DNA of 42,410 bases, taken from the NCBI GenBank assembly GCA_016213335.1, contig JACRAQ010000001.1:1-42410 (forward strand), written 5' to 3'. The position numbers were made by a program, and so were the translations under genes. A model generated the notes under the pieces. That model worked only from the letters and a program-made list of their open reading frames with translations. It did no database searches and had not been told where the DNA came from. Shown here piece by piece: positions 5,579 to 20,209 of this stretch. Position 1 is the stretch's first letter; each line of letters begins with the position of its first letter. This stretch comes from Nitrosomonadales bacterium (lineage in GTDB: Bacteria > Pseudomonadota > Gammaproteobacteria > Burkholderiales > Gallionellaceae).

Positions 5579-5601
5579 TGCCATCCTTTCGAAACAGGCT
5601 G

Positions 5602-7005
5602 CTATATTACCTTGGAATAGCGGGCATGCTCCTGTCTCGTGCGCAGATATTTGTCAAAAACCATGCAGATGTTGCGGATCAACATGCGCCCCTTGGGGGT
5701 AACGCCGATCCATTCGGGGGTGAGCTTGAGCAGCCCTTCGCGCTCATATTCGCGCAGCTCCTCCAGCTCGGTGGCAAAATAGCGATCAAAATCTATCAGA
5801 TAGGCGATGTTGAACGATTCCTTGGAAATCTCGAAATGGCACATCAAAGCCTGGATGATGGCACGGCGCACCAGGTCGTCGGCATCCAGTTCCATGCCTC
5901 GCATTATGGGCAGTTCGTCGCGGTCCAAGGCGTCGTAGTATTCTTCCAGCTCGCGGTAATTCTGGCTGTAAGTCGGCCCTATCTTGCCGATCGCGCTCAC
6001 GCCCAGCGCCACCAGATCGCAGTCGGAATGTGTGGAATAACCTTGAAAGTTGCGGTGCAGCCTGCCTTGGCGCTGCGCCACCGCCAGCTCGTCGTCCGGC
6101 TTGGCAAAATGATCCATGCCGATATAGACATAACCGGCGTCAGTCAAGGTTCTCACCGCAAGGCTTAAAATGTCCAGTTTGACCTGCGGCGCCGGTAACT
6201 CTTCTTCGTGAATGCGGCGCTGCGGCTTGAAAATGGTGGGCATGTGCGCATAGTTATAAATGGACAGGCGATCCGGATTTGCGGCAATCACCTTTTCCAG
6301 CGTGGCCTTGAATCCATCCAGACTCTGTTTCGGCAAGCCGTAAATGAGGTCTATGCTGACTGACTTGAAGCCGTTGGCGCGCGCCGCGCGGATGACCTGG
6401 AGGGTTTCTTCTTCGCTCTGGATACGGTTTACCGCGCGCTGCACCAGCGGGTCAAAGTCCTGCACGCCAAGGCTGATGCGGTTGAAACCCAGCTCGGAGA
6501 GCAATATGACGGTTTGGTCGCTGACCTTGCGCGGGTCAATTTCGATGGAATACTCGCCGTTTTCCACCAGCTTGAAGTGCTGGCGGGTCGCATCCATCAG
6601 CCTGCGCATCAAATCATCGCTGAGGAAAGTCGGCGTACCGCCCCCCCAGTGCAGTTGCTCGACCCGCTGCCCTTCGCCCAGCAAGGCGGCTTGCATGGAT
6701 AGCTCCTTGATTAGATAGCGAACATAATCATCCGCCTTACTGAGATCCTTGGTGATGATTTTGTTGCACGCGCAATAAAAACACAGCGTATTACAGAACG
6801 GGATATGCACATATAGCGACAGTGGCCTGCTGATGCCGCCAATCTCGCGCTTGGCTACCCAACTGCGATAGCTTTCTGCGTTGAATTCCTCGACAAAACG
6901 ATCGGCGGTGGGATAGGAGGTATAGCGCGGGCCGTTCTTGTCCAGCCTGCGGATCAAGTCCAGATCCACTTCCAGTTCAGATGTTGCTTTTACGCTCGAT
7001 GGCAT
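5602..7005 (-). CDS. hemN: Oxygen-independent coproporphyrinogen III oxidase
   Basis: A radical-SAM enzyme of 467 residues that decarboxylates coproporphyrinogen III to protoporphyrinogen IX without oxygen in the cytoplasm. The N-terminal NGPRYTSYPTADRF is typical of true HemN rather than HemW. The SAM cluster motif is CNTLCFYCAC (C71, C75, C78 and the extra C80 characteristic of HemN). The SAM-binding LHWGGGTPTFL follows near residue 120, and the GVQDFD and IDLIYGLP motifs are present. Length matches E. coli HemN (457). It is divergent from fnr; a perfect FNR box at 7063-7076 lies 40.5 bases from the start site expected from a CATAAT at 7041-7036. This is the arrangement of an FNR-activated promoter, as known for hemN in other bacteria. 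Confidence 0.97.
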   Translation of the reverse strand: MPSSVKATSELEVDLDLIRRLDKNGPRYTSYPTADRFVEEFNAESYRSWVAKREIGGISRPLSLYVHIPFCNTLCFYCACNKIITKDLSKADDYVRYLIKELSMQAALLGEGQRVEQLHWGGGTPTFLSDDLMRRLMDATRQHFKLVENGEYSIEIDPRKVSDQTVILLSELGFNRISLGVQDFDPLVQRAVNRIQSEEETLQVIRAARANGFKSVSIDLIYGLPKQSLDGFKATLEKVIAANPDRLSIYNYAHMPTIFKPQRRIHEEELPAPQVKLDILSLAVRTLTDAGYVYIGMDHFAKPDDELAVAQRQGRLHRNFQGYSTHSDCDLVALGVSAIGKIGPTYSQNYRELEEYYDALDRDELPIMRGMELDADDLVRRAIIQALMCHFEISKESFNIAYLIDFDRYFATELEELREYEREGLLKLTPEWIGVTPKGRMLIRNICMVFDKYLRTRQEHARYSKVI

Positions 7006-7035
7006 AGTGGCTCCGAAAATTTAAAAACGTCACGA

Positions 7036-7041
7036 ATTATG
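7036..7041 (-). promoter_or_regulatory. Candidate -10 box of the hemN promoter
   Basis: Read on the minus strand the hexamer is CATAAT (5 of 6 match to TATAAT). Transcription would start near 7029. The FNR box centre (7069.5) is then about 41 bases upstream, the class II activator position. No -35 hexamer is needed in that class. Confidence 0.55.
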
Positions 7042-7062
7042 CTAGTTAGCCGTATTGTGCAT

Positions 7063-7076
7063 TTGATGTAAATCAA
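7063..7076. promoter_or_regulatory. FNR box between hemN and fnr
   Basis: TTGATGTAAATCAA is a perfect match to the FNR consensus TTGAT-N4-ATCAA. It lies in the 115-base gap between the divergent hemN and fnr genes. It is well placed to activate hemN, and could also mediate autoregulation of fnr. Confidence 0.9.
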
Positions 7077-7120
7077 AACACGTGCCATAATTAACCACTA
7101 AGTAATAAAGAAACAACGAC

Positions 7121-7855
7121 GTGCAAAAACCTGTCTCTCTGGCCCCGCTTAGAGTCGCTTGCTCCGGTTGCAACCTGCGCGAGCTGTGCATGCCCATGGA
7201 CCTCACCAACACGGACATGGAACAGCTGGACGAGCTAACCTGCATCAAACACGCCTACCAGCGCGGCGACTTCCTGTACCGTAGCGGCGCAAAATTCCAG
7301 TCGTTGTACGCCATCCGTACCGGTTTTTTCAAAACCCAGGTGCTGCATGAAGACGGACGCGAACAGGTTACCGGCTTCCAGATGGCCGGGGAGATCATCG
7401 GCATGGACGCCATCAGCAGCGATGCACACGCCTGTGACGCCATCGCCCTGGAAGACAGCGAAGTCTGCGAAATCCCCTTCAGCCGCATGGAAGAGCTCAG
7501 CCGCAAGCTCCCTTCGCTGCAGCGCCATCTGCACCGCATCCTGAGCCGCGAAATCGTGCGCGACCAGGGCATCATGTTGCTGCTCGGCTCGATGCGCGCG
7601 GAAGAACGGCTGGCTGCCTTCCTGCTTAACCTGTCGCAACGCTTTGCGGCGCGCGGCTACTCCCCGACCTCGTTCTATTTGCGCATGACGCGCCAGGAAA
7701 TCGGCAGTTATCTCGGCATGAAACTCGAAACCGTCAGCCGCACTCTGTCGAACTTCCAGGGGGCGGGCCTGATTACCATACGCAACAAATCGGTGGAAAT
7801 CCACAACCTGCAAAAACTGCAACGATTTGTCGGCCCCCCGCCTGAATGCGGCTGA
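7121..7855 (+). CDS. fnr: FNR-type oxygen-sensing transcription regulator
   Basis: A Crp/Fnr-family activator of 244 residues. It carries the full cysteine set for an oxygen-labile [4Fe-4S] cluster: C14, C17 and C23 in ACSGCNLRELC plus C105 in the cNMP-like domain. The helix-turn-helix near residues 185-212 has the recognition helix ETVSR, whose Glu-Ser-Arg contacts define TTGAT specificity. So it should recognise the boxes at 7063, 8123 and probably 20196. The start is GTG 7121, confirmed by the position of the N-terminal cysteines; no strong ribosome site is visible, only an AAAG 11-14 bases upstream. It could alternatively be called Anr. Target genes in this window include heme synthesis and terminal reductases. 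Confidence 0.96.
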   Translation: MQKPVSLAPLRVACSGCNLRELCMPMDLTNTDMEQLDELTCIKHAYQRGDFLYRSGAKFQSLYAIRTGFFKTQVLHEDGREQVTGFQMAGEIIGMDAISSDAHACDAIALEDSEVCEIPFSRMEELSRKLPSLQRHLHRILSREIVRDQGIMLLLGSMRAEERLAAFLLNLSQRFAARGYSPTSFYLRMTRQEIGSYLGMKLETVSRTLSNFQGAGLITIRNKSVEIHNLQKLQRFVGPPPECG

Positions 7856-8236
7856 CAATGCCGCTGGTTGCCGTTGGCCTCCCATGTAGCGACAGGACAA
7901 TGTGACCATGCATCGCCGCGCGGGTTTCACGTTACGCCGGCAATTATTATGAAGTGCTGTCAACGAAGCATTCGGCTAAACCGTTTTATTCCTTGACCGC
8001 AGTTCTGTTTGACTGTTGCGGACTGCGGTTAAGAGAGCGGCACGGATAGTTTGCCGCCGCCACCCCTTCCACGCGACTCATCATCAGAAGGGGGTGTTAC
8101 CGGCGCTGGCCCCTGTCGAAACTTGATTTACATCAAGCGGCACAGGGTTGTTCTGACACAAAATACCGGCGGCTGAAATTAGGCTGCCGTGACTGTACGA
8201 TGTTGTATTAATTAACCCCCATAGGAGAAATGCGAA
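7856..8236. other. fnr-cytochrome c intergenic region (381 bases)
   Basis: No gene is seen here. It holds a perfect inverted repeat, ACCGCAGT at 7996-8003 with ACTGCGGT at 8022-8029 around an 18-base loop, of unknown role and without a T tract. It also holds an FNR box at 8123-8136 and a weak -10 (CAAAAT, 8159-8164). A good ribosome site, AGGAG at 8223-8227, precedes the cytochrome. Confidence 0.6.
8123..8136. promoter_or_regulatory. FNR box upstream of the cytochrome c gene
   Basis: TTGATTTACATCAA is a perfect FNR consensus. Its centre (8129.5) is about 41.5 bases before a start expected near 8171 from the CAAAAT hexamer at 8159-8164, which is again the class II activator spacing. Confidence 0.88.
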
Positions 8237-8548
8237 ATGAAAAAAGCCTTGATCATTGCTGGAATCGCCGCCTGCTGCCTGAGCGCTCCCGCCATTGCCG
8301 ATCCCGCAGCCGATGCCAAAAAAGCAGGCTGCATGAACTGCCACGCGGTGGACAAGAAAGTCGTCGGCCCCAGCTTTAAAGACGTCTCTGCCAAATACAA
8401 AGGCGATGCCGGCGCCGTAGACAAGATGATCGCCAAAGTAAACGCTGGCGGATCTGGCGCTTGGGGCCCGATGCCGATGCCGGCGCAAAAAGGCAGGCTG
8501 CCCGATGCCGAGCTGAAAGCGGTGGTAACTTGGGCGCTGGCGCAATAA
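8237..8548 (+). CDS. Small periplasmic class I cytochrome c (c551/c552 type)
   Basis: A 103-residue precursor with a signal peptide cleaved near SAPAIA-DP, leaving a mature protein of about 82 residues. It has one heme c motif, CMNCH at residues 32-36, and an axial Met in the GPMPMPAQ loop (M81 likely). Cytochromes of this size shuttle electrons in the periplasm to terminal oxidases, nitrite reductases or nitric oxide reductases. An AGGAG lies 9 bases before the ATG. The upstream FNR box predicts expression at low oxygen. It is a plausible donor to the CuA subunit encoded at 19161-19706, but that link is inferred from context only. A stem-loop follows at 8602, so it is probably transcribed alone. 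Confidence 0.93.
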   Translation: MKKALIIAGIAACCLSAPAIADPAADAKKAGCMNCHAVDKKVVGPSFKDVSAKYKGDAGAVDKMIAKVNAGGSGAWGPMPMPAQKGRLPDAELKAVVTWALAQ

Positions 8549-8601
8549 GCCGCAGGCCGCAAGAGTAGCAACTGCTTTATTGGGTTTTGTAAACCGAGCA
8601 A

Positions 8602-8640
8602 CGGCGCGCCGTGCAAGTCATGGCGCGCCGCTGTCTTTTT
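8602..8640 (+). terminator. Probable terminator after the cytochrome c gene
   Basis: CGGCGCGCC at 8602-8610 pairs perfectly with GGCGCGCCG at 8622-8630. CTGTCTTTTT follows, so the T tract is offset by about five bases from the stem. Confidence 0.7.
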
Positions 8641-8739
8641 CAGAAGCGCCATCACCTGCACCGGCGGCACCACACCGGCAAAATTGCGCGGCTTCCGCTA
8701 ATCTCCGGAACGCTCTAGATAGCGCGGAGCACAAACATT

Positions 8740-8916
8740 ATGGGATACCTCTACTACACCCTGATCGGCATCGGCCTCTATTTCGTATCGGACTGGCTGC
8801 TGGATCGCCTCGAAGAGATGTACGGCGCCCGTTTCAAGTACCGCAGCCTGGTTTTCTTCGCCATTATCACAACCTTGGCACTGCTGACCGCACAGATTGC
8901 CAGCCTTTATGGCTGA
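8740..8916 (+). CDS. Small membrane protein, 58 residues
   Basis: A short reading frame with two predicted membrane helices: YLYYTLIGIGLYFVSDWLL near the N-terminus, and LVFFAIITTLALLTAQIA near the C-terminus. A charged loop between them contains DRLEEMYGARFKYR. It lies between the cytochrome c terminator and ctaA. A GGAG 11 bases before the ATG (8726-8729) could serve as ribosome site. I do not recognise the family. Its position next to heme A synthase suggests an assembly or accessory role in a terminal oxidase, but this is only inferred. The clean hydrophobic pattern argues that it is real rather than chance. Confidence 0.65.
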   Translation: MGYLYYTLIGIGLYFVSDWLLDRLEEMYGARFKYRSLVFFAIITTLALLTAQIASLYG

Positions 8917-8959
8917 AGCCAGGCCCGTTGTGATTTCATGCAAAGCACCCTGATGCCTC

Positions 8960-9883
8960 ATGACTGATGGCAACCGCACGTTTCACCTTCTGGTGCAGCT
9001 CACTTTTGCCCTGATGGCTGTGGTGGTAGTGCTGAGCGCCTACATGCGCCTGTCCGCCACCGGCCTGGGCTGCACTGGCTGGCCAAGCTGCTATGGGCGC
9101 ATTCTGGCCGGACTTGCTCCTCCCCGTCCGGAGTGGATAAACGCCACGCACCGCATTGCGGCGAGCATCATGGGGCTCGCCGCGCTCGTGCTCGCCATGC
9201 TCGCTTGGCGCCGTCGCGCCACGGCACCCCGCGACTTGCCGCTGGCACTCGCGCTGCTTGGCGTGACCGCCTTGCTTGCCGCGCTCGGCAAATGGACACA
9301 CGATGCGCGCCTGCCCGCCGTTGCGCTCGGAAACCTGCTGGGCGGGGTGGGCATGCTGCTGTTGCTGTGGCGCCTGCATCTCGGGCATGCGCCGCAACCC
9401 GCCGCCCCTTCCGGCCTGCGCGGCTGGATATTGCCTGGCTTGGCACTGGTTGCGGCGCAAACCGCACTGGGCGGCATGGCCAGCGCAAACTTTGCCGCAT
9501 CCAGTTGCGCCGGTCTGAGCGGTTGCGAAGGATGGTGGCACCAGGCAGCGTTGGCGTCATTCAACCCGTTTGCAACGCTGGATGTGGCGCAGGGCGGCAA
9601 TTTCTCGCCAAGCGCCACGCAACAGACCCTGCACATGACACACCGGCTCTTGGCGCTGCCGGTTATCTGTTATCTGGTTTGGCTGGGAATTCGCCTGCTC
9701 CAGGAAAACCGGCGGGGCAGCGGTTTGCTGCTGATCTCCACCCTCGCGTTGCAGGCCGCACTGGGGATCGGCGCCATCACCGGCGGTTCACCGCTCTGGC
9801 TCATACTGTTGCATAACATTGCGGCAGCGTTCCTGTTGCTCATTCTGCTTACTCTCGGCTACCGGTTGCGCAAGCGCGCATAA
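8960..9883 (+). CDS. ctaA: Heme A synthase (COX15/CtaA family)
   Basis: An integral membrane protein of 307 residues with about eight helices that oxidises the C8 methyl of heme O to the formyl of heme A. Conserved heme-binding histidines are seen in ATHRIAAS near residue 55, GKWTHD near 113, MTHRLLAL near 225 and LLHNIAAAF near 290. The N-terminal motif RLSATGLGCTGWPSCYG, with a Cys pair in the first periplasmic loop, is typical of the betaproteobacterial class. With ctaB at 16486 it supplies heme O/A to terminal oxidases, which says that at least one heme-copper enzyme of this organism uses heme A. It is convergent with the cytochrome b gene ending at 9947; I see no clear terminator in the 63 bases between. 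Confidence 0.93.
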   Translation: MTDGNRTFHLLVQLTFALMAVVVVLSAYMRLSATGLGCTGWPSCYGRILAGLAPPRPEWINATHRIAASIMGLAALVLAMLAWRRRATAPRDLPLALALLGVTALLAALGKWTHDARLPAVALGNLLGGVGMLLLLWRLHLGHAPQPAAPSGLRGWILPGLALVAAQTALGGMASANFAASSCAGLSGCEGWWHQAALASFNPFATLDVAQGGNFSPSATQQTLHMTHRLLALPVICYLVWLGIRLLQENRRGSGLLLISTLALQAALGIGAITGGSPLWLILLHNIAAAFLLLILLTLGYRLRKRA

Positions 9884-9946
9884 CTGCCAAACGGCCCTCC
9901 CGCGACGCCTTGGCTGCTATTGTTCGCACTGGCTTGTGAGCGTTGC

Positions 9947-11500
9947 TCAATGATTTTCATGCTCCTGCTCGCCTTCATCCGCGAACGATGCTCGCGGCAA
10001 ATGCGCGATTCGCTCCCGCAACAAGGATAGCGCCGCGCGCGCCTGTCTCTCATCCTGGGGGCCGGCCCAGCAGGTCTCGATCCGCTGGAGCGGGACGCGC
10101 TGGCGCAATTTTGGCTCGCGCCCGCGCGCCAGCCGCTGCTCGGTCCAGTGTATGCCCAGGCGATACTGGCAGTCGCACTCGCGGCAACCGGCGATCAGTA
10201 CGCCATCCGCACGCGCATCGCGCAATACGTAATCAATGAATGCCGGCGGCAGCATGCCGATACAAGGCAGCGACAGCACGGCCACCCCTTCCGACCGCAG
10301 CCCGCGCACATCAAAAGCGCAATCGCAGCCAAACACCATGACACGGGCTTCTCCCTGCAGCTCGTCCAGCGCCCGGTCCGCTTCGGTGCGCAACGCCGCC
10401 AGCAGTTTATCCGGCAGCTCGATGCCACTCACCAGCTCGCTGCTCCGGAATGGCATCGAGGATGGACAAGCACCCACGCAAATGCCGCAGCTCGCGCATA
10501 ACTTTGGATCCACCACCGGCTGCAGTGCGTGCTGGCGGCCATCGTTGCGCGGCTGCATCATGATGGCCGAATAGGGGCAATCGTTGAAGCAGCGCTCGCA
10601 GCCATTGCAGTTATCCAGATGAACTTCGGCTACCGGTGCTCGGGCGCGCGGCTTCAAGAGCCACGGCACCGCGAGCAGCAGCAAGGTGGCCCCGCCAACC
10701 AGCGCCCACACCGCACCCGGCGACCAGGAATAAATCAGCGGATACGGCGCAAGGTAAAACCAGTCGAGCTGGAGCGCTGCGGGCACCAGCGACAAATCGG
10801 CCTGGGCGTGGCTCAGCGCTGGTTTGATCAGCGAAAGCGCCAGCAACGCCAGCAGCGTGCCGATGGCCAAGCTTCGCGGCGGATTGGTCTCGGCGTGGTT
10901 CATGCGCTTGGTATGCACCCACATGAACAGGAACAGCAATAACGGAATAAAGATGTGGGTGAAGGACAGCATGTTGATGAAGCGATCGCTGACGTTGCTT
11001 TGGAACAGAAAGTTTCTCGCCAGCGGCTGGCTGAACAGCGGCAGCCAATCGAACCATTCCGTGGTGGCCACTGCCACAAACTGCGCCAGCCGGTCCCACA
11101 CCATCCAGTACCCATTGATGCCGCAAATATAAACCAGCCAGACCAGCAGTACTCCAGTCACCCAGGAAAACCAGCGGAAACCGGAATATCGTCCGAATAT
11201 GAAATTGCGCAGCAGATGCAACAGCATCGCCACCACCATACCGTCGGAAGCATAGCGGTGCAGGCTGCGCATCACGCCGCCGGCATACGGCTGGTCATGA
11301 GTCAGGGACTCGACCGTTTGGTATGCTTCATTCACCCCGGTCCGGTAAAAGATATAGAGGTAAATCCCGCTGACAACCACGATCCAGAACAGGAAATAAA
11401 GGATCGCACCGAGGTGGTACCATGGGTTCAGCGCCTGGCCGAACGGCGTGTCGAACAGGCCTTCCATGCGCCGCCAGAAATTCCGGGGTTGATTATTCAT
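9947..11500 (-). CDS. Cytochrome b fused to 2x[4Fe-4S] ferredoxin and MvhD-like domain
   Basis: A 517-residue fusion protein. Residues 1-285 are a cytochrome b6-like membrane domain with two bis-His pairs, H81/H95 and H182/H196, each with 13 residues between. Residues 298-345 hold two [4Fe-4S] motifs (C298, C301, C304, C308 and C335, C338, C341, C345). Residues 385-490 resemble the MvhD/FrhD delta subunit of hydrogenase-heterodisulfide reductase complexes, with Cys in VFGCDC, SLPCIG and GCRECDC. Known relatives of that domain pass electrons between Fe-S carriers. The membrane part is clearly homologous to the cytochrome b at 13539-15464, so the two are paralogues with different electron-input modules. 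A 119-base gap separates it from the upstream subunit I; no strong ribosome site is seen. Likely role: moves electrons from a low-potential donor into the heme-copper module. The donor is unknown. Confidence 0.8.
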   Translation of the reverse strand: MNNQPRNFWRRMEGLFDTPFGQALNPWYHLGAILYFLFWIVVVSGIYLYIFYRTGVNEAYQTVESLTHDQPYAGGVMRSLHRYASDGMVVAMLLHLLRNFIFGRYSGFRWFSWVTGVLLVWLVYICGINGYWMVWDRLAQFVAVATTEWFDWLPLFSQPLARNFLFQSNVSDRFINMLSFTHIFIPLLLFLFMWVHTKRMNHAETNPPRSLAIGTLLALLALSLIKPALSHAQADLSLVPAALQLDWFYLAPYPLIYSWSPGAVWALVGGATLLLLAVPWLLKPRARAPVAEVHLDNCNGCERCFNDCPYSAIMMQPRNDGRQHALQPVVDPKLCASCGICVGACPSSMPFRSSELVSGIELPDKLLAALRTEADRALDELQGEARVMVFGCDCAFDVRGLRSEGVAVLSLPCIGMLPPAFIDYVLRDARADGVLIAGCRECDCQYRLGIHWTEQRLARGREPKLRQRVPLQRIETCWAGPQDERQARAALSLLRERIAHLPRASFADEGEQEHENH

Positions 11501-11619
11501 CGTGGGTGAGCCTGAATTTCACCGCGCGCTTCCCGCCGTAAGTCATGTAGCGCGCAGGATGGCTGACGTATGCCTGCCAAACAAACCTGAAATGACAAAA
11601 ATGGCGCTGCAAACAGGCG

Positions 11620-13026
11620 CTAGCTTACCCGCTCTTTCAGCGCGCGATATATCACCACAAGAAACATTATGCCGCCGACCACGGCGATCAAACCGCCGAT
11701 ACCCATCAATCCCATGCCGGCAATCTGCGAAAAGCTGTGCAACTCCTGATCTGCTCCCGCAACCTTGCGTTGCACCCCGTATCCGCCCGACCACAGCAGT
11801 CCAATGATGTGCAGCAATTGCCCCACGCAATATACGTAGGGCATCCACAGGGCAAGCTTGAAGTTGACCACCTTGTACCCCAGCTTGTGCAATAACACCA
11901 GAGACATCCCCATGAAGGACAGGCTCACCCCCCCGCCCGTGCCGTGGTAATGCGCGGTAATGATGGTATTGCTGTCCTTGATCAGGAAGCTGATGCCGCC
12001 GCCTACTGCAAACAGAATCAGGGAACACAGCAAATGCCCGAATAGCGGGCCCATTTGCGGATCCGGATAGCCTCGCTTCCACATGGCATACATCACCGCC
12101 AGCCCGACCGGCACGACCGCCAGGCCGCCGCCAGCTTTCATCATGACGATAAACATTTCCATGTTGGCACTGGTGTTGGTCTCGTAGCTGGAATAAATCA
12201 GCGGCGTGAGCAGAACCGGCGCAACCCCGAGAGCAAACATGGCAAGCACCACGCGCGGGGTCATGGTGATTTGAGCGCCATATTCGGACGCCAGCCACAA
12301 CCATCCCACCATCATCAGCAGGGTGTAGGAAAACTGCATTACATGGCCGCCGCCCCAGAATAGCGCCTCGAAATAAGGCAGGCCCTTCACAAAAAACGGA
12401 ATGGTGGCAAAAGCCCAGGCAAAAGCGACCAGCGCCATGGCTGTCGCAAACGCGGCCGTAACCAGCCCGAAACACAGCACCCCGCCCTCTCTGTCCGGGC
12501 CAAATCCGGTAAGCGGCACGGTCAGCAAACCGCGCAAGGCAAGCAGTCCTATGCTGCAACCAAACAGAAACAGCCCGGTGAGAAACACCTTGTTTTCCAG
12601 CACCGGAATATAGTTGTTCATGAGCGGGCCGCCGCTGCCGACAAAAGGCGAAAGCATCACGACCAGAACACCCGCTACCGCAAGCAGCAACGCGACCCAG
12701 CCGAGCGGCATCAGCTTTGGCGGAGATGCCGCGCTCCACAAGACGCCGGCAAATGCAAAAAACCACACCAGCACCGACAAGTCAACATGCACTACCAGAG
12801 CGCTGCGGAAGAAATCCACCGTAGGGAAGAGGTCGGATACGTAAGGTGTGCGCGCCAGCACCACGAATAAGGCAAACAATCCCGCGCCCACCAGCGCGGC
12901 AAAGCTCAGCCACAGCCATCCCGCAGCCAGCTTCTGGTTGTCGGAATGAGGTGTCGGCAACGCAAAAACGCCACCCACATCGGGTAGCGCGCCGTAAGGA
13001 TTTTTCACTGCTTCAGAATCAGCCAT
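11620..13026 (-). CDS. Divergent heme-copper oxidase superfamily subunit I
   Basis: A 12-helix-like membrane protein of 468 residues. Superfamily landmarks are seen: a low-spin heme His in VVHVDLSVLVWF (H80), the first CuB His in FWGGGHVMQFSY (H228), and the paired heme His in TAHYHGTGGG (H359, H361). Two things are odd. The position four residues after H228, Tyr in oxygen reductases, is Phe. The tandem His-His that completes the CuB site is absent; the expected region near residues 270-290 reads PLIYSSYETNTSANMEMF. Oxygen reduction by the usual mechanism is therefore unlikely. A nitric oxide reductase-like role (a gNOR-type class has been named in the literature) is my best guess and was not tested. 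It starts 6 bases after the preceding gene and is surely co-transcribed. Confidence 0.8.
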   Translation of the reverse strand: MADSEAVKNPYGALPDVGGVFALPTPHSDNQKLAAGWLWLSFAALVGAGLFALFVVLARTPYVSDLFPTVDFFRSALVVHVDLSVLVWFFAFAGVLWSAASPPKLMPLGWVALLLAVAGVLVVMLSPFVGSGGPLMNNYIPVLENKVFLTGLFLFGCSIGLLALRGLLTVPLTGFGPDREGGVLCFGLVTAAFATAMALVAFAWAFATIPFFVKGLPYFEALFWGGGHVMQFSYTLLMMVGWLWLASEYGAQITMTPRVVLAMFALGVAPVLLTPLIYSSYETNTSANMEMFIVMMKAGGGLAVVPVGLAVMYAMWKRGYPDPQMGPLFGHLLCSLILFAVGGGISFLIKDSNTIITAHYHGTGGGVSLSFMGMSLVLLHKLGYKVVNFKLALWMPYVYCVGQLLHIIGLLWSGGYGVQRKVAGADQELHSFSQIAGMGLMGIGGLIAVVGGIMFLVVIYRALKERVS

Positions 13027-13032
13027 GGCATT

Positions 13033-13542
13033 CTAATTTTTAAACATGAAACCGGGAGCGCCGGGAACGTCGGCCTTGAAATCAATTACCAGCACGTGAC
13101 CAGCAGCCAGGGTAACGGTCTCGTTGCGTACAAAATCAAAATCGCCTTCCACCTTGTCTTTCAGGCGCGCCACAAACCGGTGCGTGCCGGCGGGAACCTG
13201 CAAGCGCCGGTAGATTGATGCAGCGCCATCGTGCGCCAGGCCCGGCGGCGGCAACACAACATGGTACAGCTGCTTGCCATCCATTTCCAGCTCTACCACC
13301 ACGTCGGCCCGTTCGCGTGGGCAATCCTTTTGTACCCGCATATTGGGCTTCAGCTTGGCCAGTTCCTCACCGGTGCGCTCACGGCACGCGCCCTTGCGTT
13401 GCGCGGCGTGGGTGAAGCTCAGCTTGACCAGCGCCTGGCCGGGTGAAATGTGCAGGTACTCAGGGGAGGTGGAGAAATAACCCAGCACCACGGCAAACAG
13501 CGTGTAAGCCAACCCTTGGCCCAGATAATTCAATGGTTTCAT
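13033..13542 (-). CDS. Membrane-anchored unknown protein linked to divergent subunit I
   Basis: A 169-residue protein of unknown function. An N-terminal helix (about residues 8-24) anchors a periplasmic domain. The soluble part holds ISPGQALVKLSFTHAAQRKG, two Cys about 25 residues apart (RKGACRER and KDCPRER) that could form a disulfide or bind copper, and a late beta-rich stretch. The fold looks like a beta-sandwich. The ATG at 13542 overlaps the TGA of the upstream cytochrome b gene as ATGA, so translation is coupled; a longer frame starting upstream is unlikely. It ends 6 bases before the subunit I gene. Tight packing between a cytochrome b and subunit I argues for a structural or assembly subunit of the same complex. 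Confidence 0.8.
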   Translation of the reverse strand: MKPLNYLGQGLAYTLFAVVLGYFSTSPEYLHISPGQALVKLSFTHAAQRKGACRERTGEELAKLKPNMRVQKDCPRERADVVVELEMDGKQLYHVVLPPPGLAHDGAASIYRRLQVPAGTHRFVARLKDKVEGDFDFVRNETVTLAAGHVLVIDFKADVPGAPGFMFKN

Positions 13543-15464
13543 GGCAAGGCCTCCGTGGCGGGCTGCGCCGCTTTGGGCTGGGACAGGGTGAATGCGTCCG
13601 AGAAACACGCCTCCTCCGGCAAACCGTGCGCAAGAAACGACGGCCGCGCCGCCTGTACCATCATCAGCGAACCGCAGGCATAAATCTGGAAGCCGCTCAA
13701 GTCCGGGTGATCCTGCAAGATAGCCTCGTGCACCATGCCGGTTCGCCCCCGCCAGCCATCGCCCGGATCTGCCTCTGACAACACCGGAACAAAAGTGAAA
13801 TTCTCATGATCCCGCTGCCAGCGCTCGGCCAGGTCGGCCATGTATAAATCCTCGCGCTTCCTTGCCCCCCAATACAGTATCATGCGCCGCCTGGTGCCAG
13901 CATGGAATGCGTGTTCCAGCATGCTTTTCACCGGCGCAAAGCCCGTTGCGCCTGCCACAAAGATCACCGGCGCGTCGCTGTCATCATGCAGATAGAAGCT
14001 GCCCAGCGGGCCTTCGACGTCCAGCTCATCACCTTCTTTCATTTTTGTAAACACGTGAGTGGTGAACCGGCCACCCGGAATATGGCGGATGTGCAACTGG
14101 ATAAACTCGCCATCGTGCGGGGCATTGGCAAATGAGAAACTGCGGCGCACCCCATCTTCCAGCAAGACGTCGAGATACTGGCCGGCAATGAACTTCAGTT
14201 CGTTGCCTGGCGGCAATTTCAGGTGCAGCACCATCACCTCCGGTGCAGCTCGCACCATCCTGTGCACTTGGCACTTCAGGCGTTTGACCGGGATCTGTTT
14301 CAGCTTCTCGTCTTCGCAATATTCGATCTCCAGGTCGGATAGCGGTATGGCGCAGCAAAACAGCGCCTTCCCCGCCTGCTTCTCCTGCTCGCTCAGCGCG
14401 CTTTCCTGATAGACGCCATAATCCACCGAGCCGCTCAAAATGGTACCCTTGCAGTTGCCGCAGGCTCCGTCGCGGCAGGTGTGCGGCAAGCGCACATCCT
14501 GGCGCAATGCCGCCTCCAGCACCGTCTCGCCCGGCTTGGTCTTGATCATGTGTGCGGCGGGTGCAGTCGTAATCTGGAAACCTGCGCTGCGCTTGGCCCG
14601 TGCCAGCAGCGGCAGCAGCAGCAAAACGGCCATAACGCCCCCTGCCAGGCCCCACAATTGCCCATGTGGCCATGTGTATATCAGCGGATAGGCCGCCATG
14701 TAAAACCAGTCCAACTGGACTTGCGTGGGAACTGCGCCCAGATCGGCCTGTCCCTGGCTCAAGGCTGGTTTGACCAGCGACAATATCAGCAGCGTGAGAC
14801 CGAAGCCGTAGGCAAGCGGGGTGGACGGAAAGGTTTTGGCACCGCTCACGCGCTGGGTGTGAACCATGATAAAAACCAGCATCGCCAGCGGAATACCGAT
14901 ATGCGCAAAGGCGAGCATCGAAAAGAAGCGGTCGTTGACGCTGTCCGGAGTAAGGAAGTTTCTTACGAGGGGAGAAGCGAAAATCGGCAGCCAGTCAAGA
15001 AACTCGGTGCTGGCCACTGCGACGAATTGCGCAAGCTGATCCCACACCAGCCAATAGCCGTTTATTCCCGATACGAATAACAGTAGCAGAAGCACGATAC
15101 CGGTAAGCCAGGAGAATGCCCGGAAGCCGCTCATCCGGTTCATCGCAAAGTTGCGTGCCATGTGCACCAGCACCAGGATGACCATGGCGTCCGACGCGTA
15201 CCGGTGCAGGCTGCGCATGATGCCGCCCAGATACCATTGCTCGTGGGTGATTTTTTCGACCGAGGTATACGCCTCGTTTATTCCGGTGCGGTAAAAAGCA
15301 TAAATAAAAAACCCGCTAACCAGCACGACCCAGAACATGTAAAACGTGATTGCGCCCAATTGGTACATCGGGTTCATCTCTGCGCCAAACACGGCGTTAA
15401 ACCCTTTCTCCACGCGCAAAAACAAAGCCTGCCCAAAACGTTGCAATAGCTTGATCACGACCAC
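13539..15464 (-). CDS. Cytochrome b fused to [2Fe-2S] ferredoxin and FAD/NAD(P)H reductase
   Basis: A 641-residue fusion. Residues 1-290 are a cytochrome b6-like membrane domain with heme pairs H87/H101 and H188/H202. Residues 297-385 are a plant-type [2Fe-2S] ferredoxin (CRDGACGNC with C330, C335, C338, then C370). Residues 393-640 are a ferredoxin reductase-like module: FAD motif RSFSFANAP near 441, and NAD(P)H-binding GATGFAPVKS near 505. The order implies electron flow from NAD(P)H through FAD, [2Fe-2S] and two hemes b, probably to the co-transcribed subunit I. The track start is GTG 15464; GTG 15458 is an equally good choice, since GGGGTGG lies just ahead. It overlaps the next gene by ATGA. 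A candidate promoter lies 75-100 bases upstream. A membrane NAD(P)H-linked reductase serving a heme-copper enzyme is unusual. Confidence 0.85.
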   Translation of the reverse strand: MVVIKLLQRFGQALFLRVEKGFNAVFGAEMNPMYQLGAITFYMFWVVLVSGFFIYAFYRTGINEAYTSVEKITHEQWYLGGIMRSLHRYASDAMVILVLVHMARNFAMNRMSGFRAFSWLTGIVLLLLLFVSGINGYWLVWDQLAQFVAVASTEFLDWLPIFASPLVRNFLTPDSVNDRFFSMLAFAHIGIPLAMLVFIMVHTQRVSGAKTFPSTPLAYGFGLTLLILSLVKPALSQGQADLGAVPTQVQLDWFYMAAYPLIYTWPHGQLWGLAGGVMAVLLLLPLLARAKRSAGFQITTAPAAHMIKTKPGETVLEAALRQDVRLPHTCRDGACGNCKGTILSGSVDYGVYQESALSEQEKQAGKALFCCAIPLSDLEIEYCEDEKLKQIPVKRLKCQVHRMVRAAPEVMVLHLKLPPGNELKFIAGQYLDVLLEDGVRRSFSFANAPHDGEFIQLHIRHIPGGRFTTHVFTKMKEGDELDVEGPLGSFYLHDDSDAPVIFVAGATGFAPVKSMLEHAFHAGTRRRMILYWGARKREDLYMADLAERWQRDHENFTFVPVLSEADPGDGWRGRTGMVHEAILQDHPDLSGFQIYACGSLMMVQAARPSFLAHGLPEEACFSDAFTLSQPKAAQPATEALP

Positions 15465-15538
15465 CCCGCTCTAACTCATGGATGTTGCCAGCGCCATCAT
15501 CCTGCACTGACAGACAAATAACTGTATCTTATATGCAT

Positions 15539-15567
15539 ATTATGGCAGCTCATATGCTTGCTGGCAA
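15539..15567 (-). promoter_or_regulatory. Candidate sigma-70 promoter for the cytochrome b-subunit I operon
   Basis: On the minus strand a TTGCCA (15567-15562) is followed after exactly 17 bases by CATAAT (15544-15539). It lies in the 184-base gap between sco and the cytochrome b fusion, an otherwise empty AT-rich stretch. It suggests that module 2 can be transcribed apart from module 1. No FNR box is visible here. Confidence 0.5.
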
Positions 15568-15648
15568 TTCCTTTTCGGTTCTCGGGTGGCTGATTGCCGG
15601 GTAGCCTGCGTATAACAAGGCCAGGCGCCGGATGCAGGTGACCTCAAG

Positions 15649-16482
15649 CTACTGCGGCCCCTGATTGGGATTGGGCGAGCGCTTAGGAGCGTTACGCCAT
15701 GCACGAATGAGCCAGGCAGCGAAAAAATAAATCATCACTACGCTGATAAACATCCCTACAAAAAACGAATAGTCGCTGACGTAGGTTTTGGTTTTCGGAT
15801 CGTATACGGTGCAGAACAGGCGGATACGGTTGCGCAAACCCTCCCACCCCGGATACTGGGTTTCCACGTTCCCCACCATTTTTTTCAGCGGTTCGCCCAG
15901 CGAAGGAAGTTCGAAGCTATCGCCATAAACTTGACCGTAGATTTTGCCGTTCTGGTCTATCAGCGTAAGGAGGGAGATATGGTTGAAGCCTGCGACGGAA
16001 TATTCATAGCTGAACCCCAGGTTACGGGTAAAGCTTTTCATCGTTGCCGCATCTGCGCTCGCGAATTCCCAGTTCGGCAATTTGATGTTTTGCCTTTTAG
16101 CGAAGTCGCGCATGGTCATCGGTGAATCCCAGGGCGCGTTGAACCCCACCGTAAGCACGGCAAAGCTGTCCGCCCCGAGTGCGGACTGCATGTATTTCAC
16201 TGCCTTGGCAAGATACTGGGTAGTGGCAGGGCAGACTTCCGAACAGCTGGTATAGATAAAGCTTACCAGCAGAGGTTTGCCGCGATAATCGGAAATCCTG
16301 AACGGCTTGCCGTTGCGGTCGAGCAGAGTATAGTCGGCCACCTGCTGGCCGACCACGCTCTCGCTGAATTTCAGTGCTGACTCACTGCTGAGCTTGATGG
16401 GGGATGCCGCTTGGCCGCCCTCTTCCAGGGCATACGCAACCCCGAAACCCAGCAGCAGGCCAAGAAGCAACAATAGGCGCAT
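15649..16482 (-). CDS. SCO1/SenC/PrrC-family copper chaperone
   Basis: A thioredoxin-fold protein of 277 residues that delivers copper to the CuA or CuB site of heme-copper enzymes. The copper ligands are visible: Cys pair in YTSCSEVCPATT (CxxxCP) and a His in FNHISLLTLID. There is an N-terminal signal or anchor (residues 1-19) and, less usual, a C-terminal membrane helix in DYSFFVGMFISVVMIYFFAAWLIRAW followed by a basic tail. It begins 3 bases after the ctaB stop, so the two are co-transcribed. A sco/senC gene next to a CuA subunit II and a Tyr-less subunit I recalls the norSY-senC arrangement known from ammonia oxidisers. Confidence 0.9.
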   Translation of the reverse strand: MRLLLLLGLLLGFGVAYALEEGGQAASPIKLSSESALKFSESVVGQQVADYTLLDRNGKPFRISDYRGKPLLVSFIYTSCSEVCPATTQYLAKAVKYMQSALGADSFAVLTVGFNAPWDSPMTMRDFAKRQNIKLPNWEFASADAATMKSFTRNLGFSYEYSVAGFNHISLLTLIDQNGKIYGQVYGDSFELPSLGEPLKKMVGNVETQYPGWEGLRNRIRLFCTVYDPKTKTYVSDYSFFVGMFISVVMIYFFAAWLIRAWRNAPKRSPNPNQGPQ

Positions 16483-16485
16483 CAG

Positions 16486-17343
16486 CTACACAGACGCATC
16501 CAGCATGGCGGAAACCAGCAGCAAGGTCAGTTGCATGAGCGAAGCGTGAAAGCACGACATTGCCGTGGCGCGGCTGGGAGCGCGCGCCAGCTTTACGCTT
16601 TTCGACAGGAAATATGCGCCGCCGATCGCTGCACCAGCAAAATAAAGCCAGCCCATCCCGAAAAAAACCGGGGTCAGCGAAGTCGCTACCAGCAGCACGG
16701 TGCTGCCAAAAATCACGCGCGCCGCACGCTCATCCCCGACCACCACCGGCAGCATGGGCACCTTGGCGGCATCGTAGTCCTTGTGGTAGGCAATCGCCAA
16801 GCTCCAGAAATGCGGAGGAGTCCACAAAAACAGTATGGCCGCCAGAACCAGCGCTTGCGAGCTCAGTTCCGGGTTGACCGCAGCTGCCCCAGCCAGCACC
16901 GCAAAACTGCCAGCCAGCCCGCCGATTACGATGTTCATCCAGGTGCGGCGCTTCAGCCACACCGTATAAACCACGGCATAAAAAAACGCACCCAGAAACA
17001 CGAATAACGCAGAGGTTGCATTGAGCGCCACAGCCGCAGCCGATACCGAGCCAGCCAGCATGGTCAGAATCACGCACAGCCAGAATGGCCCATGCCGAAG
17101 CGTACCGGTCACGAAAGGGCGTTTCCGGGTACGCGCCATGCGCACATCTATATCCCGCTCTACATATTGGTTGAATGCACCCGCACTGGCCGAGGATATC
17201 AGTACCGCCAGCCCAAGCAACACGATTTTCCAACCGGCCAGCGTACCCGGCGTCACCGCCACACCAGCCAGAGCAGTAAAGCTGATGACGATACCGATTC
17301 TCAGCTTGAACAAATCGGTAACTTGTTTAATAGCTGCTCCCAT
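16486..17343 (-). CDS. ctaB: Protoheme IX farnesyltransferase (heme O synthase)
   Basis: A UbiA-family membrane prenyltransferase of 285 residues that adds a farnesyl group to heme B, the step before CtaA. The Asp-rich motif NQYVERDIDVRMARTRKRP near residue 58 binds farnesyl diphosphate, and the second motif ending in YHKDYDAAKVPMLPVV lies near residue 190. Nine hydrophobic helices are apparent. I placed the start at ATG 17343 (MGAAIKQVTDLFKLR), which matches the family N-terminus; the frame extends 20 codons upstream without homology. It lies 115 bases after the subunit I gene, with a perfect stem-loop in between. The pairing with sco indicates an operon for cofactor loading of the upstream heme-copper enzyme. 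Confidence 0.95.
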   Translation of the reverse strand: MGAAIKQVTDLFKLRIGIVISFTALAGVAVTPGTLAGWKIVLLGLAVLISSASAGAFNQYVERDIDVRMARTRKRPFVTGTLRHGPFWLCVILTMLAGSVSAAAVALNATSALFVFLGAFFYAVVYTVWLKRRTWMNIVIGGLAGSFAVLAGAAAVNPELSSQALVLAAILFLWTPPHFWSLAIAYHKDYDAAKVPMLPVVVGDERAARVIFGSTVLLVATSLTPVFFGMGWLYFAGAAIGGAYFLSKSVKLARAPSRATAMSCFHASLMQLTLLLVSAMLDASV

Positions 17344-17407
17344 ATTACGAACCCCAAGTGGTTGGACGTGAAATGCGCCACGCCTTTGCCGATAACTCCA
17401 CAAACGA

Positions 17408-17427
17408 GGGGAGGTATAAACCTCCCC
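17408..17427 (-). terminator. Stem-loop between subunit I and ctaB, possible attenuator
   Basis: GGGGAGGT and ACCTCCCC form a perfect 8-base stem with a 4-base loop. In the sense of transcription (minus) it is followed by TCGTTTG rather than a T run, so it may be an mRNA-stabilising or processing hairpin rather than a full terminator. It could lower expression of ctaB and sco relative to the two structural subunits. Confidence 0.5.
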
Positions 17428-17458
17428 TTCGTATGGCGTGCCTCAGGTCAACTCGCCA

Positions 17459-19156
17459 TCAGGTCAATGGCCACAAGGTAGCCAGATACTTGAAGTTGAC
17501 GAAGTAGTACAGCACCAGGCAAACGAACAGCGTCAGAGCCAGGACAAACGTGCCAGGAGCCTCGAAGCCGCCCATGCCGATTTTCTTGTGTCCGCCTGCG
17601 TCGGCAGGGGGTGCCACGATACACTTGGCGTTTGCCGGAACCGGCTCACCCATCAGGATGGAGCCCACAATGATCAGGATAAATGCTGCTCCGCCGACCA
17701 CCGATATCACGCCGCCAATTTCTCCGATAGCCATCAGCAACTGGTTCATGCCGCCGTAGTCATATGCCAGCGCCTGCCCGGCAAAGGTCATATCCTGGTG
17801 GCGGCGCGGAACGCCAAGCGTACCTGCACCCATCAGGGCGACCGCAAATACCGCCATGCCGCCGCCAAACAGCCATGGCTGAATTGCCGCCAATGGTTTC
17901 AGGATGAGCTGGCGCTGGAACAGCACCGGAACCAGATAGTAGGTCAATCCCATGAACGCCAGCGTAGTACCGCCCGCCACCGTTCCGTGGAAATGGCCCG
18001 GCACGTAGATGGTGTTGTGGATGATCATGTTGATCTGTTCCACGCTCATCACCACGCCGCTGATCCCGCCGATAAAGCCGAAAATGATGATGGACAGGAT
18101 CGTGGACGAAAATACCGGGTTACCCCATGGGCATTTGCGCAGCCACTCGAACAAACCGTTGTCCAGCCCGTTTCTGCGCTGTGCCACCTCGATTGAGCCG
18201 GGAACAGTCAGACCGTGGATCAGGCTGGCCAGCACCGCCAGGTACATCATGTAGCTGGTGTTCACAATTTTCCACGATGCGCTCAGGCCGGGGTCGGACA
18301 GCAAGTGGTGGGTCGAGCCCAGTTGCAGGAAGCAGATATACAGCAGGAAAGCTGTGCGGCTGACTTTTTCCGACATCGGCTTGGCGCCGAAGGCCAGTCC
18401 AGCAACGGTGTACCAGATCGTGATATGAGCGGTCACGTTGATTTGCTGCGAAGAGTGGCCGAACCCCCAAAACACCACGCGGTACATCATCGGATCCACG
18501 CTCTTGATCAGGCCCAGCGACCACAGAAACGCCGGGATCAAAATGACGGCGCCCGTAGCGAGCGTGAATACCGCGATCACCACTGCAATCATGCAGCCAT
18601 ATACTGTCAGCGGCAAAGAGCCTTCATAAGTCTTCTCTTCCTTGGCGATTACCAGCGTACCCCAGAATACGAAGCAGCCGATCAGCGCCCCCACCGCAAA
18701 CAGGATGATCCCCAGATAAAAATGCGGGGCTGCAGCAAGCGGAACATACGCCGAGAACATCACGCTGGACTCGCCCTGCAATACGGCAACGGTAGTGATA
18801 GCGGTACCGACTGTCATCAGCACGACCTGCGCCCAAGCCCATTTCGGGGCAGCCAAACGGCAGTTGAGCAGGGATGTGGCGCAGAAGTAGATAACTGCCA
18901 TTTCAAAAAAGACGATCCAAACCACCAGCGCTACCAAGCCATGCGCAGTCAGCGCCATGTAAAACAGGTCAGCGGGCAACAAGTGCACTGCGGGCCAGCG
19001 TGTCAGGGCGACCAGCAGGCCAGCAAGACCTCCCACCAGCAGGAATACGACCGCGAGCACGGCGTTGGTTTTTACCAGTGCCTGCGCCGTGAGGTCTATG
19101 CGCAGACCGGTCAGCGGATCCGTGCGGAACGGGGATTGAGCGGTTGTTATAGCCAT
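17459..19156 (-). CDS. Heme-copper oxidase subunit I without the active-site tyrosine (sNOR-like)
   Basis: A 565-residue membrane protein of the heme-copper superfamily, closest in motif style to the B (ba3) family. Ligands seen are H72 (low-spin heme, ALTAHGLVALVVW), H234 (CuB), H283-H284 (CuB, STHHLLSDPG) and H388/H390 (hemes, YVPGHFHGTVAGG). In oxygen reductases H234 is followed four residues later by a cross-linked Tyr; here the motif is GHSSQQ and that position is Gln238. Loss of this Tyr is the hallmark of nitric oxide-reducing members. Together with the CuA subunit II, sco and an FNR/DNR-type box this fits sNOR (NorSY) of nitrifiers, though I could not run a phylogeny. An AGGAG ribosome site is embedded in the end of the subunit II gene, 4 bases upstream. 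It could still be a divergent cytochrome c oxidase. Confidence 0.85.
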   Translation of the reverse strand: MAITTAQSPFRTDPLTGLRIDLTAQALVKTNAVLAVVFLLVGGLAGLLVALTRWPAVHLLPADLFYMALTAHGLVALVVWIVFFEMAVIYFCATSLLNCRLAAPKWAWAQVVLMTVGTAITTVAVLQGESSVMFSAYVPLAAAPHFYLGIILFAVGALIGCFVFWGTLVIAKEEKTYEGSLPLTVYGCMIAVVIAVFTLATGAVILIPAFLWSLGLIKSVDPMMYRVVFWGFGHSSQQINVTAHITIWYTVAGLAFGAKPMSEKVSRTAFLLYICFLQLGSTHHLLSDPGLSASWKIVNTSYMMYLAVLASLIHGLTVPGSIEVAQRRNGLDNGLFEWLRKCPWGNPVFSSTILSIIIFGFIGGISGVVMSVEQINMIIHNTIYVPGHFHGTVAGGTTLAFMGLTYYLVPVLFQRQLILKPLAAIQPWLFGGGMAVFAVALMGAGTLGVPRRHQDMTFAGQALAYDYGGMNQLLMAIGEIGGVISVVGGAAFILIIVGSILMGEPVPANAKCIVAPPADAGGHKKIGMGGFEAPGTFVLALTLFVCLVLYYFVNFKYLATLWPLT

Positions 19157-19160
19157 TGTT

Positions 19161-19706
19161 TTACTCCTTTACGTAAATTCTGCCGAGCATGGTATGGTGG
19201 CCAAGACCGCAATAATCATTGCACACGATCCCATAGGTGCCGGCCTTGTTGGGGGTCACCGTGATCACCTGCTCATATCCGGGATAAGCCTGGAAGTTGA
19301 TGTTTTCCGGCTGCAACGAAAACCCGTGAACATAGTCCAGCGACGAAATATGAAGGCGGTAGCTCTTGCCTTTCTGGAGCTCCAGTACCGGGCGCCACTG
19401 AAATATGCTACCCGCGATATACACGTCACTGCCCGGGGGCGGCGCTACTACCGGCAAGCTGGGATCGCTCGCATCCTGGCGCACAGTGTATTGTTTCGTG
19501 AACTCCTCGGTCTTTTTAGCATAGACATCCGTAAAGGTCTTATATGCTTCGGTGTTCATGTTCTGGTTGCCGATCCAGTGCCACGCGATCATCCAGACAA
19601 ACATGAAAAGACACCATGAACCCGCGATGATGATCCACAGTATTTCCGTTCTTTCAATCGGCTCTCTTGCCCAGTTCTTGTCTGGCGCCGTGAATGAATA
19701 TCCCAT
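19161..19706 (-). CDS. CuA-containing heme-copper oxidase subunit II
   Basis: A 181-residue protein with one N-terminal membrane helix (about residues 24-45) and a periplasmic cupredoxin domain. The binuclear CuA site is intact: an upstream His in LDYVHGFSL and the loop CNDYCGLGHHTM, which gives Cys-x3-Cys-x3-His-x2-Met. The short N-terminus with a single helix is the ba3/B-family pattern rather than the two-helix aa3 pattern. The usual Glu between the Cys residues is Tyr or Asp here. It receives electrons from a periplasmic donor, perhaps the cytochrome c at 8237, and passes them to subunit I. It has a GGGG ribosome site and is followed by subunit I after 4 bases. In the sNOR reading it corresponds to the CuA partner of the NorSY pair. 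Confidence 0.92.
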   Translation of the reverse strand: MGYSFTAPDKNWAREPIERTEILWIIIAGSWCLFMFVWMIAWHWIGNQNMNTEAYKTFTDVYAKKTEEFTKQYTVRQDASDPSLPVVAPPPGSDVYIAGSIFQWRPVLELQKGKSYRLHISSLDYVHGFSLQPENINFQAYPGYEQVITVTPNKAGTYGIVCNDYCGLGHHTMLGRIYVKE

Positions 19707-19748
19707 TGAAACCCCCTCTTAAAAATTAAATTGTCCCGGATGCCGAAA

Positions 19749-19898
19749 TTACCTTGCTATCGGAAGAGAAGCAACCTCCATGACTCCCCACAGCGTATAA
19801 AGCACTGTCGGTATCACCAACCCCAGCATCATTATGAAATTGATGTCATCCAAGACGCGCTGCAATACAGTTTGTTGTTCAACTGGCTCATTCGACAT
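19749..19898 (-). CDS. Small single-helix membrane protein, 49 residues
   Basis: A short frame starting at ATG 19898 with GGAGG five bases upstream (19904-19908) and ending 42 bases before subunit II. The N-terminal half is polar (MSNEPVEQQTVLQRVLDD). One membrane helix follows, INFIMMLGLVIPTVLYTLWG. It was too short for most gene callers. The strong ribosome site and its place as second gene of the operon argue that it is translated. It may be an extra subunit like CbaD/subunit IIa of ba3 oxidases, which is also a single-helix peptide of about 35 residues. That analogy is from size and position only. Confidence 0.75.
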   Translation of the reverse strand: MSNEPVEQQTVLQRVLDDINFIMMLGLVIPTVLYTLWGVMEVASLPIAR

Positions 19899-20195: not shown

Positions 20196-20209
20196 TTGAC
20201 GTAAATCAA
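20196..20209 (-). promoter_or_regulatory. FNR/DNR/NNR-type box of the heme-copper operon
   Basis: TTGACGTAAATCAA matches TTGAT-N4-ATCAA at all but one position; the TTGAC half-site is the form favoured by NO-responsive Dnr/NNR proteins. Its centre (20202.5) is 41.5 bases before a start near 20161 on the minus strand, with a GAAAAT -10 at 20173-20168. A further GTCAA at 20215-20219 makes a larger inverted repeat, TTTGACG-N12-CGTCAAA (20195-20220). Confidence 0.7.

Follow-up and report, generated by a model that had tools for sequence, protein, structure and literature searches.

A conserved sNOR-type gene cluster with putative electron-input proteins and a predicted subunit I paralogue lacking the CuB histidine pair

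The heme-copper superfamily has a signature of six His, three of them metal His, one of which is changed to Asp in certain nitric oxide (NO) reductases (NORs), according to the part of PMC3475470 that deals with these residues. The closest described relatives of the system reported here are the enzymes of the sNOR or qCuANOR type (norSY-senC of Nitrosomonas and cbaAB of Bacillus azotoformans), whose gene sets are presented in the relevant sections of PMC3475470 and PMC6967387 as NorS, NorY, SenC and small membrane proteins. Whether sNOR reduces NO or O2 is disputed, transcript data of Nitrosomonas europaea having been interpreted as indicating a high-affinity oxidase (one section of PMC6967387). 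In the present study we have analysed a window of 42,410 nucleotides from a Nitrosomonadales bacterium (Gallionellaceae; assembly GCA_016213335.1, contig JACRAQ010000001.1, positions 1-42,410), in which an sNOR-type set (sN2, sN1, CtaB, SCO) is followed by four further genes, named here CBFNR, SML, HCOX and CBFS. Those descriptions (PMC3475470, PMC6967387), in the sections concerned, mention neither a second subunit I paralogue nor cytochrome b/Fe-S/flavin fusions, unlike the cluster of the window, which consists of the following genes:

19161..19706, - strand: sN2, CuA subunit II (Pfam COX2, 2.8e-5)
17459..19156, - strand: sN1, sNOR-type catalytic subunit I with the full His sextet and active-site Asn240 (Pfam COX1, 8.2e-67)
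16486..17403, - strand: CtaB, heme O synthase (NCBIfam cyoE_ctaB, 272.8 bits, cut-off 210.3; Pfam UbiA, 7.5e-51)
15649..16482, - strand: SCO, SCO1/SenC copper chaperone (Pfam, 3.1e-14), with C80, C84 and H168 in at least 95% of 55 rows
13539..15464, - strand: CBFNR, cytochrome b (4 His) with plant-type [2Fe-2S] ferredoxin and FAD/NAD(P)H reductase, BenC/MmoC-like (Pfam/NCBIfam)
13033..13542, - strand: SML, N-terminal membrane anchor with a beta-strand-rich, presumably periplasmic domain (ATGA overlap, alignment, AF2 model)
11620..13026, - strand: HCOX, predicted 12-helix heme-copper-superfamily paralogue without the CuB His-His pair, having H80, H228, H359, H361 and an extra H406
9947..11500, - strand: CBFS, cytochrome b (4 His) with two [4Fe-4S] and an FlpD/MvhD-like 4-Cys domain (Pfam)

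The genes from CBFNR to CBFS belong to a supercluster of eight genes, of which they form the second half and the sNOR-type set at 15649-19706 the first. The original prediction for this stretch, which was drawn from the DNA letters alone, had taken these four genes for a separate module forming one membrane complex, in which cytoplasmic electrons would reach HCOX as the heme-copper centre without passing through cytochrome c. Gene calls and Pfam reproduced its coordinates and domain order, with all four genes on the - strand, and the ATGA overlap between the CBFNR stop and the SML start (13542-13539) and the gap of 6 bases between SML and HCOX (13032-13027) are present as described; the separateness of the module did not hold. 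The sNOR genes just upstream in the same conserved cluster, as well as the absence of the CuB His-His pair from HCOX, had escaped that prediction.

In one genome collection at least 575 stretches matched the HCOX patterns and were found by tblastn to encode a relative, some of which may be other heme-copper proteins; the locus survey covers the best 80 of these and is skewed to the kin of the query, so that its locus counts are upper estimates. The recurrent order in the relatives is sN2-sN1-CtaB-SCO-(CBFNR or CBFS)-SML-HCOX-(CBFS or CBFNR). Where the sequence extended 7.5 kb or more upstream of HCOX (56 loci), sN1 was recognised in 49, sN2 in 48, CtaB in 45, SCO in 50, SML in 48, CBFS in 50 and CBFNR in 35. 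SML is the closest recognised gene upstream of HCOX in 56 of 98 HCOX loci, which argues for gene linkage and not chance. We further surveyed 273 other genomes spread over the class, counting HCOX at more than 130 bits, fragments among them (five genomes where the match was weaker or to sN1 only were excluded), and leaving out of the sN1 count seven genomes at 126-181 bits and about 30% identity, taken as other heme-copper enzymes. HCOX was present in 29 genomes, and sN1 and CBFS in 23 each; sN1 and CBFS occur together in 22 (Fisher p about 3e-30) and sN1 and HCOX in 18 (Fisher p about 1e-16), both p values being uncorrected for kinship. CBFS is thus the nearest partner of sNOR by co-occurrence. 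A literature search brought up no publication dealing with this cluster or with a family that lacks CuB; it did not cover the central NOR classification, and novelty in print is unproven.

The two cytochrome b fusions retain the ligand residues that had been ascribed to them. CBFNR matches Cytochrome_B (1.5e-24), Fer2 (3.3e-13), FAD_binding_6 (3.1e-14) and NAD_binding_1 (1.4e-23) of Pfam, and at least 95% of 45 rows conserve H87, H101, H188 and H202 together with C330, C335, C338 and C370 of the plant-type [2Fe-2S] site. Its ferredoxin-FAD-NAD half resembles the BenC/MmoC-type reductases (BenC 209.9 bits, below the cut-off of 430), from which it differs by the fusion to a 4-His cytochrome b. 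CBFS matches Cytochrome_B (8.3e-21), Fer4_7 (9.3e-10) and FlpD (8.2e-10), with the four His of the cytochrome b, the eight Cys of the two [4Fe-4S] and the four FlpD Cys kept in at least 95% of 64 rows. MvhD and FlpD are parts of hydrogenase-heterodisulfide reductase complexes; the C-terminal domain of CBFS is like them, and here it is fused behind two [4Fe-4S] and a membrane cytochrome b. The genome of the window carries three more FlpD/MvhD proteins, on contigs 56, 62 and 115.

The reading frame of SML spans 13608-13033, its likely start being the ATG at 13542. C75 and C96 (numbered from 13608) are invariant in a 51-row alignment, and the predicted structure (AF2) has a mean pLDDT of 92.1. 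The window protein matched no family in Pfam or NCBIfam, the 51 members searched against Pfam gave six families with one member each (best E 0.0066), and the model had no PDB match at E<=0.001 (Foldseek). A kinship to part of human HGSNAT was considered (best VIA Z 9.5, 97 residues, rmsd 3.0) and read as a common beta arrangement only.

HCOX matches Pfam through COX1 only (39.0 bits, cut-off 34.8); the window protein had no NCBIfam match, and no NCBIfam model was matched at 0.001 by 67 members of the family. The analysis of 117 distinct members demonstrates that the heme ligands are retained (low-spin H80 in 116 and H361 in 117, high-spin H359 in 117), together with the first CuB His, H228 (117/117), Q231 (117/117), R420 and K421 (116/117 each) and the extra H406 (113/117). 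A His pair at 277 and 278 is seen in none of the 117. Ile (84) and Ala (16) predominate at position 277, where L042 alone has His; Tyr occupies position 278 in 102, and the remaining 15 carry Leu (4), Phe (4), His (2), Glu (2), Gln, Ser or Pro there. His at 278 is restricted to the distant paralogues L013 and L014; these (and also L139 and L140) have Ile-His for Ile-Tyr, resembling an intermediate of copper-site loss. We rejected His288 as a substitute CuB ligand, which is found in 70 of 117 members only and is Asn in the window. The counterpart residues of sN1 (H234, H283, H284 and N240) are kept in all 54 rows having a residue there, among 55. HCOX has the bis-His and the proximal His of a catalytic heme-copper oxidase or NOR, and lacks its three-His CuB/FeB set. 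With two of the three CuB ligands gone, it probably does not serve as the electron-accepting heme-copper centre that had been proposed.

The AF2 model of HCOX (mean pLDDT 89.1) has the 12-helix fold of subunit I and superposes on solved subunits I with a best Z of 31.6 and an rmsd of 3.2 over 414 residues; a search of PDB sequences with the HCOX profile gave no match at E<=1. HCOX shares this predicted fold and the heme ligands with aa3, bo3, cbb3 and cNOR/qNOR, and differs from them by the lack of two of three CuB/FeB His and by forming its own clade with sNOR. In a tree built without long-branched rows, all HCOX rows fall into a single clade (100/100), which groups with sNOR (100/99) to the exclusion of 19 further references comprising aa3/bo3-like, cbb3 and cNOR/qNOR sequences, with no ba3, eNOR, bNOR, gNOR or nNOR among them; these rows were dropped by our own choice, which may favour this result. 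The placement of subunit I outside cbb3 and aa3, anticipated in the original prediction, is borne out. The divergent members gNOR, eNOR and nNOR have reportedly been proposed as NO reducers by Murali et al. The active-site residue table of PMC8756737 gives Asn for sNOR, Asp for gNOR and Gln for eNOR in place of Tyr. HCOX has Phe232 at that position in 81 of 81 rows; with neither the Asp of gNOR nor a His pair, the suggestion that it might be of the gNOR type fails, and the Gln of eNOR is likewise missing. sN1 and sN2 combine the His sextet, the active-site Asn and a CuA subunit, and are accordingly of the sNOR type by description, no named Nitrosomonas sequence having been aligned. They also resemble the norSY-senC and cbaAB sets in the SCO/SenC neighbour, and a CtaB gene beside the sNOR is found as well in B. 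bataviensis (in the portion of PMC3475470 on that organism). Judging from its residues and kinship, HCOX appears to be a degenerate form of the sNOR catalytic subunit, a paralogue whose CuB pair was lost, and not an ordinary terminal reductase.

The reading that we prefer, whose chances we consider evenly balanced, is that of an sNOR-type enzyme with dedicated cytoplasm-facing electron-input proteins and with the degenerate paralogue as a non-catalytic heme relay or partner. CtaB and SCO would provide the cofactors of the sNOR (sN1/sN2). CBFS would take low-potential cytoplasmic electrons through its FlpD domain and two [4Fe-4S] to two membrane hemes b, and CBFNR, where present, would lead electrons from NAD(P)H through FAD and [2Fe-2S] to its cytochrome b. 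SML may represent an anchored adaptor of the presumed complex. HCOX, with both heme sites kept and the CuB pair lost, would most likely bind hemes and pass electrons from the cytochromes b to sNOR, and the cluster, putatively under anaerobic regulation, would reduce or detoxify NO and possibly also O2. The FNR-like boxes upstream of sN2 and the genes of cytochrome d1, heme d1 or NosR type near HCOX, both described below, are in favour of this reading. Part of the predicted NAD(P)H-to-heme-copper complex is thereby preserved: the input proteins are real and are tied to a heme-copper reductase, which is the neighbouring sNOR and not HCOX.

Several observations weigh against this reading. sN2 retains its CuA ligands (H127, C162, C166, H170, H171 and M173 in at least 95% of 51 rows), so that cytochrome c may be the true donor, and the proposed bypass of cytochrome c is not upheld. 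The debate over NO or O2 as the sNOR substrate (in the section of PMC6967387 cited above) bears on it also. In a first tree, with long-branched rows in, HCOX, sNOR and one long reference were joined at 65 only. Among the 273 class genomes, five have sNOR without HCOX; in four of them (L135-L138) CBFS and SML adjoin sNOR with no CBFNR recognised on the stretch, which also speaks against the four genes as a separate module, the stretch of the fifth (L134) stopping at sN1. These loci suggest a core of sNOR, CBFS and SML, with CBFNR and HCOX as additions. Conversely, 11 of the 29 HCOX genomes are without sN1, three of them being less than 90% complete (G138, G250, G254), and HCOX lies near an A-type oxidase with no CBFS, CBFNR or SML recognised in L128-L130, and in L079, L082 and L173-L176, which come from other scans. 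The four genes as one linked set are upheld by strong linkage in many genomes, but not where HCOX stands away from the other three or from sNOR.

In L135-L138, the four HCOX-free sNOR clusters readable from end to end, a hemerythrin-like gene lies behind SML.

The occurrence of HCOX by A-type oxidases without CBFS, CBFNR and SML indicates that a relay between cytochromes b and sNOR is not its sole job. In L072, CBFS and HCOX stand behind an A-type oxidase. HCOX loci hold 11 A-type oxidase genes in all (that of L082 is partial), and the TM6 motif is readable in 10, with Tyr in 10 of 10 (HPAVY in 8, HPEVY in 2); the active-site Tyr being kept, these partners are not eNOR, and the idea that HCOX goes with NO reductases only is discarded. 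HCOX serves more than one partner and is an accessory protein, as its presence with A-type oxidases in genomes without sNOR indicates. The relay is our best guess, and the same presence keeps alive its main rival, a role for HCOX in the maturation of CuA-type heme-copper enzymes, either as a heme A holder or insertion template or as an electron supplier to heme A synthase. We regard this rival as possible, though on the unlikely side. The gene of heme A synthase, CtaA, accompanies HCOX on 55 of 98 loci and adjoins it in 21, four of them, outside the class of the window, as overlapping or adjacent HCOX-CtaA pairs several kb from an A-type oxidase with FYSHPAVY (L173-L176). CtaB and SCO are often near HCOX, and CtaB and/or CtaA are present at the A-type oxidase loci without CBFS, CBFNR and SML, except L128. 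The partners are sNOR and A-type oxidases with intact Tyr and His-His, HCOX itself keeps the heme ligands with the CuB pair lost, and the route of heme A insertion after synthesis is not known, according to the pertinent section of a review (PMC9145763). Co-occurrence with CtaA is mildly positive (26 of 29 HCOX genomes, 148 of 244 others), but G298 and G306 (98% and 96% complete) have HCOX with no CtaA detected, and these two, with the incomplete G254, weaken an obligate HCOX-CtaA link. Neither is there a trade-off with SURF1, present in 19 of 29 HCOX genomes against 146 of 244 others, and a replacement of SURF1 by HCOX finds no support. Also at odds with maturation, HCOX adjoins a sigma-70-family gene in L125 and L127, on stretches where sN1 and A-type oxidases alike go unrecognised.

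A modified form of the original prediction would make HCOX a catalytic reductase of NO or another small molecule, fed by the cytochromes b and having a new distal site of H228, Q231 and Tyr278 without CuB. The invariance of H228 and Q231 and the frequency of Tyr278 are in keeping with it, as are L067 and L099, where HCOX has nir-type genes as neighbours and the contig shows no recognisable sNOR. However, position 278 varies in 15 of 117 rows, the superfamily signature includes three metal His (same part of PMC3475470), and the polar residues kept at 95% or more are few in HCOX (81 rows), with no Glu or Thr among them, unlike the many in sN1 (55 rows), the HCOX set being also the more divergent; we hold a catalytic HCOX to be quite improbable. 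Least probable of all is a reverse flow in chemolithotrophs, in which high-potential reduction at sNOR would push electrons of quinol or cytochrome c uphill onto NAD(P)+ or ferredoxin by bifurcation or reverse transfer: the presence of an NAD(P)H end on one cytochrome b and an FlpD/Fe-S end on the other would suit it, and many carriers are recorded as Gallionella or other lithotrophs, but Comamonas, Herbaspirillum, Piscinibacter and Rhodoferax are recorded as carriers too, there is no sign of a bifurcating flavin, and CBFNR goes unrecognised in 21 of 56 loci.

Returning to the sNOR with its own electron input, the most far-reaching version, which we consider rather doubtful, is that a copper-less twin would serve as an internal heme wire in a NOR coupled to cytochromes b that are linked to NAD(P)H and to ferredoxin/FlpD. 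Reductant from the cytoplasm would then directly drive NO reduction, or be recharged by it, and nitrate-reducing iron oxidisers believed to lack any means of removing NO would have theirs in this new kind of respiratory assembly. 'Ca. Ferrigenium straubiae' (2025) is described in a passage of PMC12622760 as being without canonical nor and nod genes and as relying on community members for NO removal, and a 2023 pangenome reports, in the relevant section of PMC10734462, eNOR in 4 of 6 Nar-bearing Gallionellaceae genomes, without specifying there which ones. The genome recorded as 'Ca. F. straubiae' KS03 has a complete cluster with all sNOR residues intact (L054:2946-13309), and 'Ca. F. bremense' (L063) has a complete sNOR-CBFNR-SML-HCOX-CBFS cluster too. 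Four COX1-family genes were found in KS03, namely an A-type gene with HPEVY, which is an oxidase motif and not the Gln of eNOR, a CcoN over the NCBIfam cut-off, the sNOR and HCOX. The cluster is a candidate answer to NO removal in this organism, reported without canonical nor, and the uncharacterised HCOX family acquires a testable place in nitrogen-oxide respiration; a heme-copper subunit with hemes kept and the copper pair lost would be a natural experiment on the need for copper.

Further features of the window are:

20196..20209, no strand assigned: FNR-box-like site with 1 mismatch, about 490 bases upstream of sN2, which may equally serve the gene on its other side
8960..9883, + strand: CtaA-like heme A synthase paralogue, convergent with CBFS (Pfam COX15-CtaA, 9.7e-34)
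8237..8548, + strand: small cytochrome c (Pfam Cytochrom_C, 6.5e-8)
7121..7855, + strand: Fnr-type regulator (NCBIfam Fnr, 256.1 bits, cut-off 228)

Perfect FNR-like boxes are located at 7063-7076, between hemN and fnr, and at 8123-8136, upstream of the cytochrome c gene. Boxes with at most 1 mismatch are found upstream of sN2 in 14 of 49 loci, as compared with 7 of 245 stretches taken at random from these loci. Promoter-like sites number 6 against 5.9 in shuffles, one of them (15567-15539) falling within the gap before CBFNR; terminator-like sites number 30 against 14.4 in shuffles, most of them inside genes. Rfam gave no match at gathering score in 4000-21000, and the plasmid collection gave none. 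The CtaA of the window is the second, lower-scoring heme A synthase of the genome, the other copy being on contig 93. Genes of cytochrome d1 type, for heme d1 or NosR-like are near HCOX in L067, L091, L099 and L126, and in each of the first three an oppositely transcribed CtaA lies between HCOX and the cytochrome d1-type or heme d1 genes.

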